DNA from: Methanohalophilus profundi
GTDB lineage: Archaea; Halobacteriota; Methanosarcinia; Methanosarcinales; Methanosarcinaceae
Assembly (NCBI RefSeq): GCF_004137855.1
Contig: NZ_QBKB01000002.1
Location: 755,518-819,517 of the forward strand
Direction of reading: 5' to 3'
Length of the DNA stretch: 64,000 bases
Positions 7,214 through 23,569 of the stretch are shown piece after piece. The notes below the pieces were generated by a model, which saw only the letters and a program-made list of their open reading frames with translations, was not told where the DNA came from and made no database searches. Position numbers and translations under genes: made by a program. Within the stretch, counting starts at the first letter, position 1; every line of letters starts with the position of its first letter.

Positions 7214-9004
7214 TCAGGCGTGTTTTACCACACATTTATGCAGACCGGTAACCTCCACAATATCACTGTTATCCGGACTCTGAATTATCATCTGTCCCTT
7301 GCGAAGATAAGGAATCCTTTTTTCAAATTCCAGTGGAACATTTAATGCATTTATGGCATTGTCGTTTGAGAGATTGAGAATAATCCGGCTATTAATCTGC
7401 TTGAGCACGGTGTCATCGATGTCCTGTGGGTCCTGAGTAATCAGGAAAAGACCAAGTGTTTCCTTGCGCCCCTGCCTTGCTGCATCTGCGAATCTGGAAA
7501 CAATACGTCTTGAATGAGCCGACATCGCACCGGAAAGATACCTGTGTGCTTCATCAAGAGCCAGTAATACAGGGGTTTTCTTAACAGAATCATTGCCTGA
7601 TGTGCTGAGTTTGTTATCCACTACAATCGTCATCAAGGTGAGAGTAATGAGATCCCTGATACGGCTGTTATTTATATATTCAGTCGGGAAAACACTGACC
7701 CTGCCCGGCTTGAAAACCTCATCAAGTATTTCGGTTATCGGTTTTGCCGGCTGGTCGAATACCCTGCTGAAAGAGCGGTTCTTGACCTTACGCACAATGG
7801 CATCATAGGAAGATTCATGGATTTTCCCGCTATCCACATAAACAGAACGTGTGCCTTCATCCGCAATGAAACCTGTAAATCCCTGATAGGTATGATTTGC
7901 AGGAGTCTTGAAATAATCCTCAAGCAACAGCTCAAGGCCTATATACTGGTTTTCCGTCAATTCAGCTGCTGATATCAACCAGGAATTATTCCTCACAAGT
8001 TCGAAAGGAATTGTAAATTCCATTTGTTGTGCACGGGATTTACCCGGATAGGACTGGCCGTCCACACTTGCCAGGAATGTCCTTGTATCCTGATGGCCTC
8101 CATGCAAGACGTCCTCTTCTGCAAAGGTCACTTCATCGGCATATCCTATATCCGCATTATCCTCAAACAACTGGGAATATTCATCCTGTGGATCCATTAT
8201 CACAAGACACGGGTTTTTCTTCCTGCCCTGCTCACCCCTTACAATGTACTGGTTATCCGATGCCAGGAATTGACGCAGAATATTCTTTGTAAGAAAGGTT
8301 TTCCCCGTACCGGTACTTCCGCACACCAGCATATGACGGAACATAAGCGGATCACCCATTGAATAATCATTGCGCAGATAGTAGGCAACTGTTGGAGGAG
8401 AAGCATGTGTCCTGACAAGTTCACCCCCCACACTCAAATGTCCCAGAAAAATACCTTCGGTAGGAATGTTGAGACCTGTCTGGATCTTGAGTTTTTCAGA
8501 AACCGGTAGTATTGGAGTATTGGGACGGGGAAGCCTGTCGGCCATGCGACGCATTAGGCCTGCCTTTACGGGAGACAGGATACATAGAGGGTCAAGATAT
8601 GCAAGGAATTTGTAATCTATCTCATTGGTATTATTGGCCTTTAACATGCGCCGGGAATGCAACTCTGTCGCATCATCCACTTCAAATTCCTGCAGGTACT
8701 GCAGTTTCCAGACCCTTGCAAACAGATCTTCATCTCCGTAGGGAACCAGTACATATGTACCAAGCCTGACATTCGGCCTGTGCGAAGAAGTAATATAACC
8801 AGTAAGCCGTGCACCTGATTCAGTTATTTCAAGTGGGTCAATTCCTGTTGTAATTGTACCCAGCGCATTATCAAAGGATGATCCATCCGGATTATCCACT
8901 GTATCAGGAACATATTCCTCAAAATCTTCAACCGGTTCTTTCGAGGATACACGGTCCCCCTTATCACCTGTGGCATAAGCAAGTATGTCGTCATCATTAT
9001 CCAT
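7214..9004 (-). CDS. herA: HerA-type bipolar DNA helicase/translocase ATPase
   Basis: About 596 residues. An N-terminal HAS-barrel-like region (about 1-190) is followed by an FtsK/HerA ATPase with Walker A GSTGTGKTF near 230 and Walker B LLALDEAHRYL near 475, then RQGRKETLGLFLITQDPQDID. With NurA, HerA makes a hexameric motor-nuclease for DNA end resection in archaeal homologous recombination. ATG at 9004 is preferred: it overlaps the nurA stop by 8 nt. Mre11 and Rad50, often adjacent in other archaea, are not in this window. It converges on the sensor-kinase gene with no gap. Confidence 0.88.
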   Translation of the reverse strand: MDNDDDILAYATGDKGDRVSSKEPVEDFEEYVPDTVDNPDGSSFDNALGTITTGIDPLEITESGARLTGYITSSHRPNVRLGTYVLVPYGDEDLFARVWKLQYLQEFEVDDATELHSRRMLKANNTNEIDYKFLAYLDPLCILSPVKAGLMRRMADRLPRPNTPILPVSEKLKIQTGLNIPTEGIFLGHLSVGGELVRTHASPPTVAYYLRNDYSMGDPLMFRHMLVCGSTGTGKTFLTKNILRQFLASDNQYIVRGEQGRKKNPCLVIMDPQDEYSQLFEDNADIGYADEVTFAEEDVLHGGHQDTRTFLASVDGQSYPGKSRAQQMEFTIPFELVRNNSWLISAAELTENQYIGLELLLEDYFKTPANHTYQGFTGFIADEGTRSVYVDSGKIHESSYDAIVRKVKNRSFSRVFDQPAKPITEILDEVFKPGRVSVFPTEYINNSRIRDLITLTLMTIVVDNKLSTSGNDSVKKTPVLLALDEAHRYLSGAMSAHSRRIVSRFADAARQGRKETLGLFLITQDPQDIDDTVLKQINSRIILNLSNDNAINALNVPLEFEKRIPYLRKGQMIIQSPDNSDIVEVTGLHKCVVKHA

Positions 9005-10250
9005 CTGTATCACTCCAGCGTATATCGTTGTATTTCGTATCAACCCTGAGTTTATTGAATTGCCCCAGAATCTGTTTCCTTTCTTTTTTGCGTATCTTTG
9101 CTATCGAATCCACCTTGGAGAGGGTCGGTGGGATACCGCCTATTGAAATGTCATATAATACTTTGCGGGTGAGCAGGTGCCTCATATCATCATCTTTTGT
9201 CAGACCATAAGGAGATTCTACTTTAAAAAGAACATTCATAGCAGGAACATAGATCACAAAAAATGTCAATGCATAATCCTCTGCATCATATTTGTGGGAA
9301 AGAGAACTATCCATCAAAGGACTTGTGGTCTGGAGCATATTCTCATAGAACTGGTTGGGTTGCATGAACCAGTTTGTATAAGTAATGCAATTGCGTGAGT
9401 CTTCAGCAGAAGGATAGAGGACATTTTTGAAAAACTGGGCATCTACCAGCCAGGGTATATCCAGCTCCTTTTCCTGCTTTTTTAGCGTTTGTACGATCTG
9501 CATATCTTCAGGATTTTTCACAAATCCTACCAGTGGAAGACTATTATCCATTGCGTGGTCCATGATATCAATGTAATTTTGCAGGATTTTCAATGCCGAA
9601 GGATCATACCTTATTCTGACTTCTTCAGAAGGCACAACCATCCAGTACATTAATTGTTTGGGGTATATGGGGCCATCCATTATGAAAAAATCCCCTTTTG
9701 CAAAAATATCTTTCATCCAGAGAATATGTTCGGATTCGGAAAGGTAAAGAGCAATATTGTGAACGAGGCGTTTTTCCCTGGTCTCCAGCAGACCTGCCTC
9801 AATTTTTACCAGACGGCTTCTGCCATTGCCCCTATCAAATAATTTCCAGTCCTGCGAGGTGTTGATAGTAACATTTGCAGAAGAGGAGTAAGTAGCAGCA
9901 ACAATTGTTCTTTTGGAATGGATGTCAAGATCAGTCGGCGAGGAAGCCATTGCACAATGACAGAAATCCAGTGCAAGCCCCGAATCAAAGAGAAAAGTGT
10001 TGGTACTTCCACTATCAGATGAAAGAGTTCTTTCAACAGGGTCTTTCGATTGTGACATACGGGCCATATCTACCTTTCCCCTGTATAACCTCCCGATAGA
10101 TTTCAAAACAATTCTGGAGCCGTATTTTAGTTCTTTTAAAAAATCAAGAAGATCAGTAGCATCGCTGTCTTCATCTTCCTGCTCTACATCCATTTCAATA
10201 CCGGATGCGATTTCTTGTATGGCTTTTATGTGAATCGGTTCAAGTGACAT
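8997..10250 (-). CDS. nurA: NurA-domain nuclease
   Basis: A 417-residue protein with the NurA 5'-3' nuclease pattern: FLFDSGLALDFC near residue 87 (first metal-binding acidic block), FFIMDGPIYP near 207 (second), LVGFVKNPED near 259 and a late H in the C-terminal third. NurA partners HerA in DNA end processing, and the 8-nt overlap with herA supports one functional unit. An acidic stretch (EQEDEDSDATD) near residue 25 suits a salt-adapted organism. No Shine-Dalgarno is seen at the ATG, so the transcript may be near leaderless. Confidence 0.82.
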   Translation of the reverse strand: MSLEPIHIKAIQEIASGIEMDVEQEDEDSDATDLLDFLKELKYGSRIVLKSIGRLYRGKVDMARMSQSKDPVERTLSSDSGSTNTFLFDSGLALDFCHCAMASSPTDLDIHSKRTIVAATYSSSANVTINTSQDWKLFDRGNGRSRLVKIEAGLLETREKRLVHNIALYLSESEHILWMKDIFAKGDFFIMDGPIYPKQLMYWMVVPSEEVRIRYDPSALKILQNYIDIMDHAMDNSLPLVGFVKNPEDMQIVQTLKKQEKELDIPWLVDAQFFKNVLYPSAEDSRNCITYTNWFMQPNQFYENMLQTTSPLMDSSLSHKYDAEDYALTFFVIYVPAMNVLFKVESPYGLTKDDDMRHLLTRKVLYDISIGGIPPTLSKVDSIAKIRKKERKQILGQFNKLRVDTKYNDIRWSDTDG

Positions 10251-17752: not shown

Positions 17753-18184
17753 TCAATTAATCCCTCTGACAAAAATTACCATCCAGAACAGAAAACAACA
17801 TATCGAAAGAATGTTGTACTCTATTTCTTTTCTTGCTGCAAAATATCCTACCAGACCACCCAGTATAGCAAGGATTCCAAAATAAGCAAATGTCTTTGTA
17901 CTGATAAACTCACCTGATACGATTAAGCCAAAATATATGTCAAGAAAAAGCCCGACTACAGGTATCACTCCAATAATAACGGACCCGATCTCATCTCCTG
18001 TAAGCAATCCATATATGATGGGAGCTAACGGTAAAAGGAGCATACCGAAAAACACAACCGGAAAGGCCAGTAAGTCCCCAATTATTGGGCGCAATGCGTC
18101 TCCCAGATAATCTATTCTAGTTGTAATAATAATGACTACTGAAGATATGATTATTGGAAGTATTAATTTTTTGAAATGTATCAT
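17753..18184 (-). CDS. Small multi-span membrane protein
   Basis: About 143 residues with four to five hydrophobic segments (near residues 6-22, 40-60, 65-90, 98-112 and 122-140). No family recognised. ATG at 18184 (MIHFKKLILP) is chosen; an upstream ATG at 18244 would add 20 polar residues. It lies 70 bp after the preceding gene on the same strand and may be the last gene of the operon led by the 20.4-kb gene. Confidence 0.6.
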   Translation of the reverse strand: MIHFKKLILPIIISSVVIIITTRIDYLGDALRPIIGDLLAFPVVFFGMLLLPLAPIIYGLLTGDEIGSVIIGVIPVVGLFLDIYFGLIVSGEFISTKTFAYFGILAILGGLVGYFAARKEIEYNILSICCFLFWMVIFVRGIN

Positions 18185-18254
18185 TTTTTCACCAAAATTA
18201 AAAAATAAAACGGTGGATTGAACCACTTCCTGAATACTATTCAATTTCCATTTA

Positions 18255-18914
18255 TCACGGTCGAGTTCCCATCGCTTTTATCATAATTACTTCATCGCCA
18301 TAATTGGAAGTTTCAGCTATGATTTTCCAAGCGGGATAATATGTAATTTCATCTTTGTATCCATAGGGATAATAATCAAAGAGATCAAAATAAACGAGTT
18401 CAACATCCACTATTTTAATCCTTCCCAATGATGACATAGGATAATCACCTGTATCTGTGACGAAGTTACCGTTTTTCACCTGATGGAGAATGTGCTCATC
18501 TGAATAATCTATCCTTACCTGTTCAATAGAATTTAATCTACCTGTATTGATACTGGTTTTTGTTATATTATGATTAGTAACAAGGAAACAAATATCATCA
18601 GCAGAACTGCCACATTCCTCAATAGAGTCCTCGAAATCAACATACAGGACACTCGAGGAAGCATTGCCCTGAAATATCGGTAACTTATCTGTTGGTATTG
18701 CAGGAACTTCTGTATTCAGGCTGACTCTCTGATTTTGCAGGATTGCCCACAACTGGCCAATTTTTGTAAGCGGGATGTACTCTAGAGACAAGCCTTCCTC
18801 CATTTCTTCTATAGTCGGGTAATAATTGAAGGCACTATAAAGCGGGGAAAATACTGTGGAAATGATTATCAATATGATTAAAACTTGAATTGCAATCTTT
18901 TTCTTCCTCTGCAT
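18255..18914 (-). CDS. Membrane-anchored extracytoplasmic protein
   Basis: 219 residues. KKKIAIQVLIILIIISTVFSPLYSA is an uncleaved anchor or signal. The soluble part shares with the upstream neighbour a short NTEVPAIPTDKLPIF block (compare NTQIPATTGQLPFY), followed by a beta-rich domain with a Cys pair (EECGSSADDIC). Family not recognised. Thirty bp separate it from the 18945-19703 gene, so co-transcription is likely. Confidence 0.6.
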   Translation of the reverse strand: MQRKKKIAIQVLIILIIISTVFSPLYSAFNYYPTIEEMEEGLSLEYIPLTKIGQLWAILQNQRVSLNTEVPAIPTDKLPIFQGNASSSVLYVDFEDSIEECGSSADDICFLVTNHNITKTSINTGRLNSIEQVRIDYSDEHILHQVKNGNFVTDTGDYPMSSLGRIKIVDVELVYFDLFDYYPYGYKDEITYYPAWKIIAETSNYGDEVIMIKAMGTRP

Positions 18915-18944
18915 GTAATCACCTTCAAAAAAGGGAATAGAGGA

Positions 18945-19703
18945 TTATTTAGCCACCCCACCTACAATTCTCGTTACGTTATCACCATTGCGGTTAACAC
19001 CTCTGAATATCCACACTGGTTCATAATACTCCTGTTCACTATCCGGAGTAGCTGAGAAATAACCAAGTTCTATCTTGTGAATCTCAACCGCAGGACTGGT
19101 TTCTCCTACAGGATTTCTCATAATCTGGCCTGCTTTCAGTTTCTCTATAGCTTCCTCCCCACTTATCACTTCCATTGTTCCAATTTCTTCCAACATTCTC
19201 CAGCTTTTGGAGAAATACGTTATTTCACCATTTTCCCCAAGTGAAATAGTAATGGTGTCACCAGGACCCACAACAGGCATCCCATTTATGTTTCTTTTAT
19301 AGGTGACTTCGGTCATTACAGGATACTCGGCCTCCACAACCGGCTCTCCACTACTCTTATTGATCTGTTTAAGGTAGAGTGATTCCACACCATAAAAATA
19401 AGCATCTTCAGGGAGCCCTCCGTGCTTTTGAATAAACTGGCTGGCAATTTCCAGAGATTCTTTTTCAGACAGAATGGAATCTTTTGTATCCATTATATCT
19501 GGACTACTTTTTTCTTCTAGTTCTTCGTAAAGCACTTTGTAGAAAGGAAGTTGTCCCGTGGTTGCAGGTATTTGGGTATTTATTATGATGTCTTCCGTTT
19601 GCCCCAAACTTGCAACCGAGTCATTGTCATCGGTTGCCACAAAAATTAAACCTGCCATTGCAGCCACGACTAATAACATAACTCCGAAATATTTGTAATT
19701 CAT
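18945..19703 (-). CDS. Membrane-anchored protein with PepSY-like repeats
   Basis: 252 residues. N-terminal anchor (YFGVMLLVVAAMAGLIFVA), then a soluble region with SEKESLEIASQFIQKHG and a second block ISGEEAIEKLKAG after ITISLGENGEITYFSKSW, a pattern like tandem PepSY domains, which often accompany or inhibit secreted peptidases. That assignment is inference from pattern. The ATG at 19703 lies 2 nt after the upstream stop with GGGAG before it, so it is coupled to the upstream peptidase-like gene. Confidence 0.6.
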   Translation of the reverse strand: MNYKYFGVMLLVVAAMAGLIFVATDDNDSVASLGQTEDIIINTQIPATTGQLPFYKVLYEELEEKSSPDIMDTKDSILSEKESLEIASQFIQKHGGLPEDAYFYGVESLYLKQINKSSGEPVVEAEYPVMTEVTYKRNINGMPVVGPGDTITISLGENGEITYFSKSWRMLEEIGTMEVISGEEAIEKLKAGQIMRNPVGETSPAVEIHKIELGYFSATPDSEQEYYEPVWIFRGVNRNGDNVTRIVGGVAK

Positions 19704-19705
19704 GC

Positions 19706-20452
19706 TCAACACTCCCATGAAAGATAACAATAGCTAGAATCGTCAGGATATTCATCTGCCTCCATATCACCTTGCCCATGAAGATGATCAGTGTTCCATT
19801 GATCTATGTTATCAGTAATGATTGCAGCAGTTACATCTGTATCATAGGTATCTTTTGTTGCTTTATAGAATGAAGTTGTCATTTTGTAATCATTGATAAT
19901 TGTGTTTGTGAAGAATCTATCTATTAGCGAAGTTGATACCGTTGATTCCGTCGTGAATCCCATAATACCATGCGAATATCTTAAGGCATCTGCCCAGTCA
20001 TCTTCATCGGCTAAGATGTGACAGCTGTGAAGAAATACCCATTCATTATCCTGATCCCATTTATCAGCAACATCCTGTGCTCTTACATCTTAAATGTTAA
20101 TGCCCGGCAACCAATTACGTAATGCTAATTCTGTACCGATGTCATCTACCCCATGGCCAAAATGAAAATGAAAATCTGCTTCATCTAAACCTTTGTATCC
20201 ACTGTTGCTTGTCCCGAAATCCGATTCATCCACATTATATTCACTTTCGTGGAATTCCTCGGTCCATCCTGCAACATCATGCAGCCAATATTCAACTCTT
20301 TCATATTCATTTTGACCCCATGGATCAAGGTCACCTAAGATTACATATTCGTCAATAGTAGTTACTGAATATTCATATGCACTTGCAGTAGATATTGTTA
20401 AAATGTTAATACATATGAATAACACCAATACGCCACTCATTCTTTTGTTCAT
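19706..20452 (-). pseudogene. Secreted clan-CD-like cysteine peptidase candidate, interrupted by in-frame TAA
   Basis: A 248-codon frame with one internal TAA at 20090-20092. Before it: a signal peptide (VLVLFICINILTISTASA) and DEADFHFHFGHG; after it, same frame: EWVFLHSCHILADEDDW and HGIMGFTTES. A hydrophobic-HG block followed by hydrophobic-SC is the His/Cys dyad layout of caspase/gingipain-type (clan CD) peptidases; assignment is inference. The stop falls between the two catalytic elements, so the truncated product should be inactive. Point mutation (for example TAT or CAA to TAA), read error and readthrough are the options. Heads an operon behind the duplicated leader. Confidence 0.7.
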
Positions 20453-20455
20453 GTC

Positions 20456-20489
20456 TTTACCTCATTTGTTCAATTTACCCCGAGGCAAA
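20456..20489 (-). promoter_or_regulatory. Shine-Dalgarno-sequestering hairpin, copy A
   Basis: In the minus-strand RNA, UUUGCCUCG (20489-20481) can pair with UGAGGUAAA (20464-20456) through nine pairs including two G-U wobbles, masking the GAGGU ribosome binding site of the 20452 gene. Copy B forms the same stem with Watson-Crick pairs only, so base changes are compensatory. Confidence 0.6.
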
Positions 20490-20536
20490 GCTACGCTTAT
20501 ATACTGTAAACATCAAACTTGAGCCTGCCTTTGGGC

Positions 20537-20582
20537 CAATGTGGAGTTCTGGCTGGTTAACATTCATCGGAACTCCACATTG
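20537..20582 (-). promoter_or_regulatory. Perfect 13-bp stem-loop, copy A
   Basis: CAATGTGGAGTTC (20537-20549) and GAACTCCACATTG (20570-20582) are exact reverse complements around a 20-nt loop. With the TATA-like site near 20604-20614 as promoter it would be the very 5' end of the transcript; with the TATATAAG at 20489 it would be an upstream DNA operator. Confidence 0.75.
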
Positions 20583-20639
20583 CAAACTCTCATTCGATGT
20601 TAAACTATATATTATTTGTCATAATTCAACTAAATATGA

Positions 20640-20657
20640 GTGATTAATATTAATCAC
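20640..20657. promoter_or_regulatory. Perfect 18-bp palindrome (operator), copy A
   Basis: GTGATTAATATTAATCAC is its own reverse complement with no spacer. It sits about 25-35 bp upstream of a TATA-like site, where archaeal activators bind. The identical palindrome occurs at 23444-23461. Confidence 0.75.
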
Positions 20658-20859
20658 TTTGATTTACAACTGAAATCGCTGAAACAGATATATTCCTGAA
20701 AAACCAGAATATTTGAAAGCACCAGTGCTTCCCATCAGGTGCTACAAGATTGTCAAAGCTACTACAAAAGATGAAATAATCAATAAAATGAATGTGATTA
20801 GCCGATTAATGTTCCTGTTGCGTGCATAATCTTGGGAATGTGAGCAACAATAACAATAT

Positions 20860-20893
20860 TATAACCCGACTTGACAGTCAACGTCGGGTTATA
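20860..20893 (-). terminator. Long hairpin downstream of the 21070 gene
   Basis: TATAACCCGAC (20860-20870) pairs with GTCGGGTTATA (20883-20893); inside it TTGAC and GTCAA extend the stem with one bulged C. It lies about 180 bp after the stop of the 21070-22074 gene, with only a weak T-rich tract following, so it is a probable terminator or processing site. The rest of 20710-21069 holds no gene I can support. Confidence 0.5.
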
Positions 20894-21069
20894 GGATAAT
20901 AATTGAAATAGCTATAAAGTGGAATGAATGCAAGAGAAGATACAATTAAGTCAAGTCAAGAAAATGTTATCAGGTTTTTTCTCCTTTGCATTTCTTCACC
21001 CTAAATAAGAAATAGAGGTTTACTCTTTCACATAGATGGCTGCCCTTCCCACCAAAATACTTCGATTTC

Positions 21070-22074
21070 TTACCCCTCAACATCATCAATGCCAACAAAT
21101 ACGATTCTTTCATTTTCTTCCAATTCATTTTCAAGTTTTCTTGCACTATCGTATCTAATGTCATCATCAAATCGCACATAGCACTGAACAGATTGATTCA
21201 ATTGCAGACCGTGTTTATTAAGTATCTCAAGGAAATCCTCATCGACTATAACTTCATTTGAAACCGTAATTATGTAATAATCTCCTTTTGCAATAACATA
21301 CCTTGATTCAGTCCAGTTTTCTACTTTTGCAAATTCATACATTAGAGGTAATCTTTCAGTTTTGTCAACCATCAGGTAATAGCTTATTTCCGTGTTATAG
21401 TTCAGTTCATATTCTGTACCCAAATCATAATCTCCAAGAATTTGCCTCATTTCCGGTTCTGTAACCCCCTCTTCAAACCAGACGGACAATCCACCCGCCA
21501 TTATTTCATTTTCATTTATTGTATAAGGGCTATAGTCAAAATTAGCAATCAAAACTTTATTGTACCCCTCAAGATCGTCTTCAATTCGTTTCAAAGTATT
21601 GTAATCAACATCAACGGTAGGTTTTTTCTTATCACCAAAACGAAGATAACACTGGACTCCGGTTTTAAGTTGCAAATTATGCTCTTCCAATGCATTCATG
21701 AAATCTGTATTCTCTTTTACTTCTTTTCCAAAAAGAATTACACAAGAGTTTGATTTTTCAACTATCTCCATATTCACAGACTGGTTTTCAAGATTCTCAA
21801 GTTTGTTCCTTAACACCAACATCTCATCATTGTCTGCCACAATGTAGCGTTTTTCCCATAGATAATCAATATTGTATTCAAGTTTATAGTCTATGGGCAG
21901 GCCATAGTCTTCAAAATTCTCCCTGGCTTCAATCTCAGTAACGTCTTCCTCAAAAATAACAAACATGCCGGCTACTTCTGTGTCATCTGAAGGTAGAAAG
22001 CTATTTGAGGGTAGAAAGAGGATAACTGCCCCAACAATCATCATTGTGATCAACAAAAGAATATTCTTCCCCAT
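21070..22074 (-). CDS. UPF0228-family anchored protein with two tandem domains
   Basis: 334 residues. N-terminal anchor (NILLLITMMIVGAVILFLP), then two copies of the same ~145-residue unit: GMFVIFEEDVTEIEAREN...LEYNIDY and GLSVWFEEGVTEPEMRQI...LNYNTEI, each ending with HNLQLKTGVQCYLRF or HGLQLNQSVQCYVRF. This fits UPF0228, a Methanosarcina family of unknown function usually present as a single unit. ATG at 22074 with GAGGT upstream. It follows the C39-like peptidase gene by 36 nt in the same operon. Confidence 0.75.
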   Translation of the reverse strand: MGKNILLLITMMIVGAVILFLPSNSFLPSDDTEVAGMFVIFEEDVTEIEARENFEDYGLPIDYKLEYNIDYLWEKRYIVADNDEMLVLRNKLENLENQSVNMEIVEKSNSCVILFGKEVKENTDFMNALEEHNLQLKTGVQCYLRFGDKKKPTVDVDYNTLKRIEDDLEGYNKVLIANFDYSPYTINENEIMAGGLSVWFEEGVTEPEMRQILGDYDLGTEYELNYNTEISYYLMVDKTERLPLMYEFAKVENWTESRYVIAKGDYYIITVSNEVIVDEDFLEILNKHGLQLNQSVQCYVRFDDDIRYDSARKLENELEENERIVFVGIDDVEG

Positions 22075-22110
22075 TTTGAAACCTCTTCTAAAAAGAAAAA
22101 GGAAGGACAA

Positions 22111-23253
22111 TTAGTCCTTCACAAATATGTGGTTTACTACATTTCCCCATATTTCTAAGCGATTTGATCCTGAATTGACTGGCCAGGGGTCATTTATGGA
22201 AATATATCTTATTCCATAATCTTGGTATCCGATGCAGGCTCTTGCATGCCCTGTCACTGCACTTTTTAAGGGTCTTTCATTATTAATCTCTGAAACTACG
22301 TCATTAAAATCGGGTGTGTCATCATGATATGATCCGTCTTTATCCAATCCATTTGAAGCCTTGTAATAAGTTAATTGCTCAGAATTAGTGCAACCGCCTG
22401 TATCACCGTCCATTATCCCAAAAATGTAATCTTGCGTATGTGTTACTCCATAATATTTGGCAATCATTTGTGCAGTTGCAGGAGCACAATAATAACTCTC
22501 TTCCTGTCCGTATAATGGCACATCGAGTTCTTTTGAACCAATTCTTGGAAGGTCCTTTTGTGCATCAGTGTAAGGTTGTTGCATTAATTCTATAACTTCA
22601 GAGCTACTGTCCCATTTAGCTACATTTTCTCCTGCTTTGTCCTCTGAAATACTGTCATACACAGACCAGATACCCGGTTCATTTTCAGTTGGTTCTTTAT
22701 CTGGTATTAGTTCAAGGGAATATGCATCTACAATTACTCTATGTTTGTTTCCTGTAGCTTTGTCAATTACTAAACTCATTGCCCCGAATTTAGGATAACT
22801 GTATACAACCATTCTGGTTGATTGGATTTCCCCGGATGGGTATTTGTCGTTGGCAATTTCAATCGATTTTTCCATTGCCTTATTTTGATCGAAAGGCCTG
22901 GGATCAAATTCGAAAGCCTGAACTGGATAACCGAGAGTCTTGTTAGCATTTACCTCAATTCTACCTATCAATTGTTTGCTATCATATACAGAAAACAGGT
23001 AATGTAGCTTTTTGCCGTCTATATCGTAAAATTCAACTGGTTGGGGATCAATATCTGCATCCTTCCAATCTTCAAATTCCAGCGCACCAATTGCAGAAAA
23101 ATAAGCCACATGAGCATCTGCATGTTCAAGAGCCTTTTTTGCACTGACATCGTAATTCTCGTCTGACTGTGCACCCATTGCTGGCACTATCGTGAATATA
23201 AGGAATAGCGCCATCAGCAGGGTACTTATCCGTACTAAATTATTCTTCTTCAT
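22111..23253 (-). CDS. Secreted C39/papain-like cysteine peptidase
   Basis: 380 residues. Signal peptide ISTLLMALFLIFTIVPAMGAQS, a ~200-residue pro-region (LIGRIEVNANKTLGYPVQAFEF is PepSY-like), then a catalytic domain: YYCAPATAQMIAKYYG near residue 252 (nucleophile Cys after an oxyanion Gln in YGQEESYYC), GHARACIGY near 335 (His) and SINDPWP near 355 (Asp/Asn), the order of C39 and papain-fold peptidases. Target unknown; self-processing is possible. First gene of an operon with UPF0228 and preceded by leader copy B. Confidence 0.8.
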   Translation of the reverse strand: MKKNNLVRISTLLMALFLIFTIVPAMGAQSDENYDVSAKKALEHADAHVAYFSAIGALEFEDWKDADIDPQPVEFYDIDGKKLHYLFSVYDSKQLIGRIEVNANKTLGYPVQAFEFDPRPFDQNKAMEKSIEIANDKYPSGEIQSTRMVVYSYPKFGAMSLVIDKATGNKHRVIVDAYSLELIPDKEPTENEPGIWSVYDSISEDKAGENVAKWDSSSEVIELMQQPYTDAQKDLPRIGSKELDVPLYGQEESYYCAPATAQMIAKYYGVTHTQDYIFGIMDGDTGGCTNSEQLTYYKASNGLDKDGSYHDDTPDFNDVVSEINNERPLKSAVTGHARACIGYQDYGIRYISINDPWPVNSGSNRLEIWGNVVNHIFVKD

Positions 23254-23257
23254 TTTA

Positions 23258-23293
23258 TTTACCTCGTTTGTTCAATTCTATTCCCGAGGTAAA
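23258..23293 (-). promoter_or_regulatory. Shine-Dalgarno-sequestering hairpin, copy B
   Basis: TTTACCTCG (23258-23266) and CGAGGTAAA (23285-23293) are perfect reverse complements with an 18-nt loop, ending 4 nt before the ATG at 23253. The stem contains the GAGGT ribosome binding site. Confidence 0.65.
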
Positions 23294-23340
23294 GCTACGC
23301 TTATATACTGTAAACAGCAAACTTGAGCCTGCCTCTGGGC

Positions 23341-23386
23341 CAATGTGGAGTTCAGGCTGGTTAACATTCATCGGAACTCCACATTG
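23341..23386 (-). promoter_or_regulatory. Perfect 13-bp stem-loop, copy B
   Basis: CAATGTGGAGTTC (23341-23353) and GAACTCCACATTG (23374-23386), identical arms to copy A, with a 20-nt loop that differs by a single base. Confidence 0.75.
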
Positions 23387-23443
23387 TAAACTCTCATTTG
23401 ACGTGATCGTATATATTACTTGTTATAATTCAATTAAATATGA

Positions 23444-23461
23444 GTGATTAATATTAATCAC
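23444..23461. promoter_or_regulatory. Perfect 18-bp palindrome (operator), copy B
   Basis: GTGATTAATATTAATCAC, identical to 20640-20657 and at the same distance from the TATA-like site. Confidence 0.75.
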
Positions 23462-23569
23462 TTTGATTAACAACTGGAGTCCCTGAAAATAACTTTCTGA
23501 AAAACCAGAACTGCAAAAACAGACCCTCAACAAGATGACAGAGAAGAATTCCCTCTTCATTGTTGCCCC

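Follow-up and report, generated by a model that had tools for sequence, protein, structure and literature searches.

A probable structured leader RNA family of exported-protein genes in methane-cycling archaea, seen from a duplicated locus of Methanohalophilus profundi

Why should nearly the same DNA precede two operons whose leading genes are unrelated? The question is raised by a locus in the 64,000 nucleotides of Methanohalophilus profundi that we analysed (hereafter the window), for which an earlier reading of the sequence (the original prediction) had proposed two peptidase-led operons under duplicated promoter/leader elements. The duplication was found where it had been placed: positions 20479-20684 and 23283-23488, both on the minus strand, align over 206 nt without gaps at 91% identity, shorter matches on the flanks lengthen the repeat to ~250 nt, and it begins 26-30 nt 5' of the two start codons. 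This likeness is far beyond chance. By Pfam profiles the coding regions behind the two copies are unrelated, and thus it was the control region that was copied and not the enzymes, as had been proposed. The host genome has six clear DNA-level copies of the repeat, which also occurs in four of seven other Methanohalophilus genomes.

The two leaders and their operons

Structural alignments of trimmed copies made with MAFFT were one position off in hairpin 1 and were not used; a covariance model, R1, was therefore built from the Methanohalophilus copies in an alignment (A1) with explicit structure. The features of the locus are as follows.

20639..20658, minus strand: perfect 20-bp palindrome AGTGATTAATATTAATCACT 5' of the copy 1 TATA box, a candidate DNA operator
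20606..20613, minus strand: copy 1 TATA box AATATATA, 20-27 nt 5' of the element
20447..20586, minus strand: leader copy 1, before the DUF6345 gene (R1, 119.0 bits, E=5e-26; copy included in the R1 alignment)
20570..20581, minus strand: copy 1 hairpin 1 (P1) 5' arm AATGTGGAGTTC, pairing with 20538-20549
20538..20549, minus strand: copy 1 P1 3' arm GAACTCCACATT
20521..20536, minus strand: copy 1 hairpin 2 (P2) 5' arm GCCCAAAGGCAGGCTC, anti-anti-SD
20478..20493, minus strand: copy 1 P2 3' arm TAGCTTTGCCTCGGGG, anti-SD, with possible pairing to the P2 5' arm or the SD
20456..20463, minus strand: copy 1 SD sequence GAGGTAAA
19706..20452, minus strand: DUF6345 gene with signal peptide and an in-frame TAA at 20090-20092
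18945..19730, minus strand: secreted protein of operon 1, weak DUF4901 (YcdB/YcdC) and YycI matches (3e-6)
18255..18914, minus strand: 219-aa N-terminally anchored protein of operon 1, without family match
17753..18244, minus strand: 163-aa membrane protein of operon 1
23443..23462, minus strand: copy 2 palindrome AGTGATTAATATTAATCACT
23410..23417, minus strand: copy 2 TATA box AATATATA
23254..23390, minus strand: leader copy 2, before the C39-like gene (R1, 122.5 bits, E=6.5e-27; copy included in the R1 alignment)
23374..23385, minus strand: copy 2 P1 5' arm
23342..23353, minus strand: copy 2 P1 3' arm
23325..23340, minus strand: copy 2 P2 5' arm GCCCAGAGGCAGGCTC
23283..23297, minus strand: copy 2 P2 3' arm TAGCTTTACCTCGGG, with A where copy 1 has G
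23258..23266, minus strand: copy 2 SD CGAGGTAAA, perfect complement of TTTACCTCG within the P2 3' arm
22111..23253, minus strand: secreted C39-like cysteine peptidase, Peptidase_C39_2 (PF13529; Pfam E=5e-12)
21070..22110, minus strand: UPF0228 protein of operon 2 (Pfam 6.7e-45)

A C39-type peptidase does head one operon, its PF13529 score being 47 bits against a gathering score of 24 and its Cys and His being invariant in 10 element-led homologues. The clan-CD-like peptidase expected at 20.4 kb may hold as a family assignment: the two gene pieces, joined as one, match the DUF6345 profile of Pfam (E=5.6e-13), a His/Cys dyad is invariant in 14 homologues, and the best matches of a low-confidence predicted structure (mean pLDDT 66) include the CHAT protease filament (caspase-like), caspase-3 and C11 peptidases. 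As a working enzyme the window gene fares worse, since the in-frame TAA leaves a first piece of 120 aa and a second one downstream, so that the stop separates the catalytic His from the catalytic Cys; an intact homologue from another family, itself preceded by the element, shares 39% identity with it.

Structure, position and cargo of the leader family

Most probably the element is a cis-regulatory leader RNA with two conserved hairpins whose arms change in compensation, and the original reading of a duplicated promoter gives way to that of what is mainly a structured mRNA leader. Because no single pair was significant in a per-pair covariation test under a phylogenetic null (best helix pair E=0.45), we relied on compensatory changes in aggregate. 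A tree-aware count yielded 24 double changes that preserve Watson-Crick pairing, as compared to 5.3+/-2.5 expected (maximum 14 in 200 simulations) and 1-5 in slid controls. In alignments that had been fitted to the covariance model, two-sided changes occur at 23 of the 28 pairs and 85% of cells are paired (28-48% when slid), and for 68 copies from other families the figure is 79.8% (34-48% when slid). Unpaired residues of the P2 loop are conserved as well. The leader family is previously unrecognised: no earlier description of the motif was found in the openly accessible literature, and in Rfam 15 the sense strand matched no family above the gathering threshold in the window region and 18 diverse loci, where the only signal was sub-threshold antisense sRNA162. 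At permissive thresholds the window gave chance matches only, while Methanosarcina loci gave sRNA162, on the strand opposite to the element.

Of the 186 genomes in the order, 105 carry the ~140-nt element (covariance model, E<=1e-3), and it recurs in further methanogen families, so that its range takes in the Methanosarcinales, ANME-2-like and Methanoperedens-like genomes included, and Methanoculleus (e.g., Methanoculleus marisnigri); all tested element-bearing genomes have mcrA. Over a hundred genomes of methanogens and methane-oxidising archaea carry the leader directly ahead of exported-protein genes, of which many code for proteases, and what was first seen as two operons is a putative regulon that spans two orders. 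Copies per genome, counted as matches listed and hence as lower bounds, reach at least ~20, and eight to nine can be grouped within 28 kb. Nearly all downstream ORFs begin 115-155 nt after the start of the element, behind the SD, and a hydrophobic, signal-peptide-like start follows directly in 165 of the 171 copies with a downstream ORF (113/118 and 52/53), as compared to a background of 11/40. Copies lying far from genes, which would have spoken against the original prediction, are therefore not the pattern. The elements are homologous, and their structure, position and kind of cargo are conserved.

The cargo itself is diverse: the 118 cargo proteins of the founding family form at least 38 unrelated groups, and ~43 of them are predicted to be peptidases, of five kinds. 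The leader is usually accompanied by a related stretch that codes for a signal peptide. This enrichment before secreted peptidases extends the predicted link to the whole family; an extracytoplasmic protease response in which neighbouring genes supply inhibitors or targets found no support. The leader marks a putative regulon of secreted peptidases and surface proteins that annotation has left blank, and its covariance model provides a sequence handle by which the regulated part of the exported proteins of methane-cycling archaea can be catalogued.

A putative translational switch and its alternatives

The start of transcription appears to lie just before hairpin 1, by experiment for one Methanosarcina copy and by prediction from TATA boxes elsewhere. 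The start of M. mazei MM2442 was mapped by 5' RLM-RACE (Jaeger et al. 2012, PMC3510493), and it falls ~5 nt before the element copy there; TATA positions agree with a start before the element for part of the other copies, and that of copy 1 predicts a start at ~20587. Upstream DNA is also shared in part: 32 of 186 copies, where 0.3 would be expected, have GATGATnTGG ~60 nt 5' of the element, and 14 have a palindrome of the GATTAATATTAATC class. For this reason transcriptional control may also matter.

We consider it probable that each copy is transcribed as a structured ~140-nt 5' leader which controls translation of an exported protein through a signal-responsive P2/SD switch. The switch, its direction and its signal are inferred as follows. 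P1 is followed by the long hairpin P2, and in the 3' arm of P2 the sequence UGCCUC mimics the anti-SD of 16S rRNA. As long as this arm is paired with GAGGCA of the P2 5' arm, the SD would be free and the gene translated; were the 5' domain occupied or disrupted, the 3' arm would pair with the SD and translation would be off. The signal would be trans-acting and common to the copies, since the same RNA stands before dozens of cargo genes that are unrelated to each other; candidates for it are proteins, small molecules and small RNAs. The leader would be reused before new cargo, usually together with a related signal-peptide stretch, and would therefore form one control unit over a changing, peptidase-rich secreted set. 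In silico the anti-SD and anti-anti-SD pairings are mutually exclusive. Complementarity between 3' arm and SD is 17.0, as compared to 15.6+/-0.2 when arms are swapped among copies, and predicted SD accessibility is 0.59 in the free leader, 0.05 with the 5' domain blocked and 0.33 with the middle shuffled. The predicted default states differ among copies, the C39 leader of the window and that of MM2442 being off and the DUF6345 leader on, so that by prediction control does not run in one direction throughout; between the two window copies the A for G in the copy 2 P2 3' arm turns the predicted default fold to the SD-sequestered one. The switch is open to direct tests in genetically tractable Methanosarcina.

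Among other readings, the one that survives best is a special case of the leader switch, namely a metabolite or ion riboswitch class with the conserved P2 loop and P1 as aptamer and the SD pairing as expression platform. The conserved unpaired loop residues, the mutually exclusive pairings and the occurrence before dozens of unrelated genes are all consistent with it, but P1 is often a plain hairpin, no biosynthesis or transport genes for a common metabolite were seen among the cargo (nor did inspection of the cargo reveal a common biosynthetic pathway from which a ligand could be named), and an antisense RNA or protein input fits the data equally well; we regard it as rather unlikely. Less likely again is an RNA thermometer or osmosensor, in which temperature or salt would itself shift P2 and the SD pairing. 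The DUF6345 leader does open with warmth by prediction (SD accessibility 0.22 at 15 C, 0.84 at 37 C), and stem-loops that mask the RBS in long 5' UTRs have been discussed for the cold response of Methanolobus (PMC5378194); by the same model, however, the C39 leader is largely closed up to 65 C, the loop is conserved beyond the needs of a melting hairpin, and the element occurs in organisms of widely differing salinity.

Slightly more improbable is that the element acts as DNA, i.e., as a promoter or operator with dyads for a transcription factor, its hairpins being inverted repeats that bind protein. The conserved upstream motifs and a TATA-like TATATAA inside the P2 loop of the Methanohalophilus copies point that way, whereas the arms vary in compensation instead of keeping a fixed operator sequence, TATA boxes lie 20-26 nt 5' of the element, and the mapped MM2442 start (PMC3510493) lies at its 5' end. 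The internal TATATAA was rejected as a promoter, since other copies lose it while the structure stays and the mapped MM2442 start also argues against it. A mobile repeat (MITE-like or satellite) that came to lie before genes by accident would suit the many near-identical copies per genome and the eight to nine within 28 kb, but is disfavoured, as very improbable, by a position before signal-peptide-like ORFs in 165/171 copies, nearly all of which end directly at SD and start codon, by an orientation to the ORF that is always the same, and by compensatory changes and retention across orders.

Relation to sRNA162 and other known systems

Archaea have few known cis-regulatory RNAs with a defined structure, and to our knowledge none of these has a link to protein export. 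One of the few is the crcB/fluoride motif (RF01734), likewise a structured 5' UTR element, from which the leader family differs in sequence, structure and cargo. As in bacterial cis-regulatory leaders, the translational riboswitches that sequester the SD among them, an anti-SD arm would pair either with its anti-anti-SD partner or with the SD; the family differs in being archaeal and in being tied to export of many unrelated proteins instead of to one metabolic pathway. Archaeal 'dark matter islands' (PMC4158269) are similar as lineage-specific clusters of secreted proteins, C39-family and PepSY proteins among them, but the accessible part of that paper describes no common leader or shared regulation.

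The closest connection is to the known antisense sRNA162, which binds the MM2442 5' UTR (PMC3510493). That 5' UTR is a member of the leader family; sRNA162 is antisense, over its first 65 nt, to P1 and to the 5' arm of P2. The leader family accounts for the unexplained second target of sRNA162 and predicts how the interaction would act. The study, in its accessible part, concerns one leader and describes no family, P2/SD switch or link to exported proteins; it took MM2442 to have no RBS, apparently on account of an annotated start that lies 42 nt into the signal peptide. By covering P1 and the P2 5' arm, the Methanosarcina antisense RNAs sRNA162/171 would lock the off state, although in the model the MM2442 leader is already off without sRNA162, which makes the effect of the sRNA on SD access a putative one. 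It is possible, if doubtful, that one ancient RNA switch, inherited in two methanogen orders and in methane-oxidising archaea, gates much of the exported proteome, and secreted peptidases especially, on one intracellular secretion or envelope signal, with antisense RNAs as extra off-switches and with no known bacterial counterpart.

The Rfam family of sRNA162/sRNA171, RF02792 (a 190-nt antisense sRNA, gathering score 78), represents the strand opposite to the element and is absent from the window locus, there being no match at E<=5 in 17-25 kb of the window. Its matches in Methanosarcina lie on the opposite strand of the element, and of 23 sRNA162-family loci 20 have the element, always at the same offset, on the strand opposite to the sRNA.

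A probable leader family among methanogens

The original prediction that the regions upstream of the two operons are near-copies of each other while their coding regions are unrelated is borne out by a minus-strand pair at 20479-20684 and 23283-23488. The two copies are 91% identical over 206 nt and end about 30 nt short of two start codons, the first preceding a DUF6345 protein and the second a C39-type peptidase followed by UPF0228. Six clear copies of the element, which is probably a structured 5' leader of about 140 nt, were found by DNA search in the M. profundi genome, with further copies in four of seven other Methanohalophilus genomes and a start codon directly after every DNA-level copy examined. 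A covariance model of the element (R1) detected 45 copies in Methanohalophilus, three of whose eight genomes were without the element, and copies in 67 of 112 genomes across the Methanosarcinaceae. When the model was rebuilt from these family-wide copies (R2) and applied to the order Methanosarcinales, copies were found in 105 of 186 genomes, the per-genome numbers being lower bounds, with at most 17 candidates scored in each. Matches were found in 84 genomes of a phylum-wide sample of 393, and six of the families represented lie beyond the order. The gene mcrA is present in 13 of 13 distant element-bearing genomes tested, and Methanoculleus marisnigri JR1 (2,478,101 bp) is among the genomes with copies; ANME-2-like and Methanoperedens-like are inferred labels, based partly on position in the order. 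Two weak matches in one locus (L047:4763-4890 and 8892-9019, minus strand) have no ORF behind them and are probably decayed copies.

Conserved hairpins and the transcription start

The alignment of element copies contains two hairpins, P1 and P2, whose opposite arms vary in concert, as in the P1 arm pairs GUGGAGUUC/GAACUCCAC, GGGGUUCAG/CUGAACCCC and GGGGUCCAA/UUGGACCCC and the P2 arm pairs CAGAGGCAGAGCUA/UAGCUUUGCCUCUG versus GAGGCAAGAU/AUCUUGCCUC. Among 124 distinct family copies, standard pairs occupy 85.3% of paired cells, as compared to only 28-48% in slid-partner controls, and two-sided changes occur at 23 of 28 pairs; the corresponding values for other families, obtained on 68 distinct copies, are 79.8% (controls 34-48%) and 24 of 28. 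Because the alignments behind these percentages were fitted to the covariance model, branch events were also counted along a tree, which gave 24 pair-keeping changes on both sides, as against 5.3±2.5 when evolution was simulated at matched rates (at most 14 in any of 200 runs) and 1-5 with slid partners. A stricter covariation test of individual pairs, run on a separately made MAFFT alignment, was underpowered (E=0.45 for the best helix pair).

Boxes resembling TATA are concentrated 20-26 nt before the element, a second class being found at about 43 nt, and transcription would therefore start at or just before P1. Independent support comes from the literature on sRNA162, an antisense sRNA of Methanosarcina: the start of M. 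mazei MM2442 was mapped by 5' RLM-RACE, giving a leader with a 65-nt overlap with sRNA162 (PMC3510493). Transferred to an M. mazei-like genome, this start precedes the first position of the element by about 5 nt. The sRNA162 model RF02792 matches the strand opposite to the element copies, and the element is present on the opposite strand, at a fixed offset, in 20 of 23 sRNA162-family loci. MM2442 was reported to have no RBS (PMC3510493), which would be explained if translation begins at an upstream TTG behind the SD AAAGAGGTGG. The gene is probably misannotated and would start at a TTG that precedes the annotated ATG by 42 nt; in the M. mazei-like genome (G082, L240:1381-1425) this SD precedes the TTG, and the TTG start gives a complete signal peptide.

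Two DNA motifs are conserved upstream of the leader. Of 186 copies, 32 carry GATGATnTGG some 60 nt before the element, where 0.3 would be expected, and the motif is present in other families too. Both window copies belong to a class with the palindrome GATTAATATTAATC, which is represented upstream of the promoter by the following sites:

20639-20658, minus strand, copy 1: perfect 20-bp palindrome AGTGATTAATATTAATCACT
23443-23462, minus strand, copy 2: perfect 20-bp palindrome AGTGATTAATATTAATCACT

It is likely that a common transcription factor recognises these motifs, and it may therefore act in addition to the leader.

Predicted layout of a translational switch

As modelled, the element is arranged like a translational switch. 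The 3' arm of P2, UUUGCCUCN, has two complementary partners, the SD NGAGGUAAA and the P2 5' arm NGAGGCA, and arm-SD complementarity is higher within copies (17.03) than with swapping among copies (15.57±0.21), with arm/SD variant pairs such as CCUCUGG/AGAGG, CCUCAGG/UGAGG and CCUCCUAG/CUAGGAG. Thermodynamic folding of 145 leaders gave a mean SD accessibility of 0.59 (0.33 with a shuffled middle) and a P2 probability of 0.78; with P1 and the P2 5' arm made unavailable in silico, SD accessibility was 0.05 and pairing of the SD with the 3' arm increased to 0.88. The predicted default states of the two window copies differ because of one 3' arm base, G in copy 1 and A in copy 2, and swapping it in silico flips the predicted state. 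At its 5' end sRNA162 carries GCCUUUGGGC, which is perfectly complementary to GCCCAAAGGC, the P2 5' arm of its target leader, so that binding of the sRNA there should favour the SD-sequestered state. Because the MM2442 leader is predicted by folding to be off even without sRNA162, sequestration driven by the sRNA is something that we infer.

Exported cargo and its possible turnover

Start codons behind family copies lie mostly 115-145 nt past the element start, with the SD in between, and 113 of the 118 downstream ORFs have a hydrophobic N-terminus of signal-peptide type, as do 52 of 53 in other families, against a background of 11 of 40 ordinary window ORFs; signal peptides were called here by a rule based on hydrophobicity rather than with dedicated prediction software. 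Sorted on the mature portion, the family proteins fall into 38 groups. The largest (n=16) consists of alpha-lytic/streptogrisin-type serine peptidases with invariant His, Asp and GDSG, matched by profile to PDB 2sfa (E=3.5e-12) and by Foldseek to L5 protease (E=1.6e-10). This secreted methanogen family (L043, L038, L121 and other loci; alignment A8) is without a Pfam match and shares a conserved pro-like domain at its N-terminus. The second group (n=14) has an invariant HExxHN motif, with M12 Pfam matches in the members tested, and in the third, a C39-like group (n=10), Cys and His are invariant; matrixins (n=2) and DUF6345 (n=1) are the remaining predicted peptidases. Since element-led cargo is thus rich in predicted peptidases (about 43 of 118, the remainder mostly of no known kind), the proposal that secreted peptidases are under shared control was correct and applies far more widely than envisaged.

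The DUF6345 gene in the window is interrupted by an in-frame TAA at 20090-20092, with the conserved His and conserved Cys on opposite sides, and is either a pseudogene or the product of a MAG error. An intact homologue (39% identity along the full length) with the same element in front exists in another archaeal family, and element-led DUF6345 genes are found in Methanohalophilus, an ANME-2-like family and Methanoculleus.

The interval bounded by the thermosome and exonuclease III genes contains two element-led operons in M. profundi, three in Methanohalophilus G005 (probably M. portucalensis), where the genes are others, and a different set of element-led genes again in M. euhalobius. This variation of cargo by genome, together with similar signal peptides on unrelated mature proteins, suggests that the leader and signal-peptide stretch may serve as a reusable front end for exchanged cargo. 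Within Methanohalophilus the interval is a hotspot in which the element-led secreted genes differ by species (window 17-24 kb versus loci L038 and L042). A dense array is seen in a Methanosarcina genome (G083, loci L127-L128), where 2844559-2872764 holds eight to nine copies in 28 kb, mostly before secreted-protein genes.
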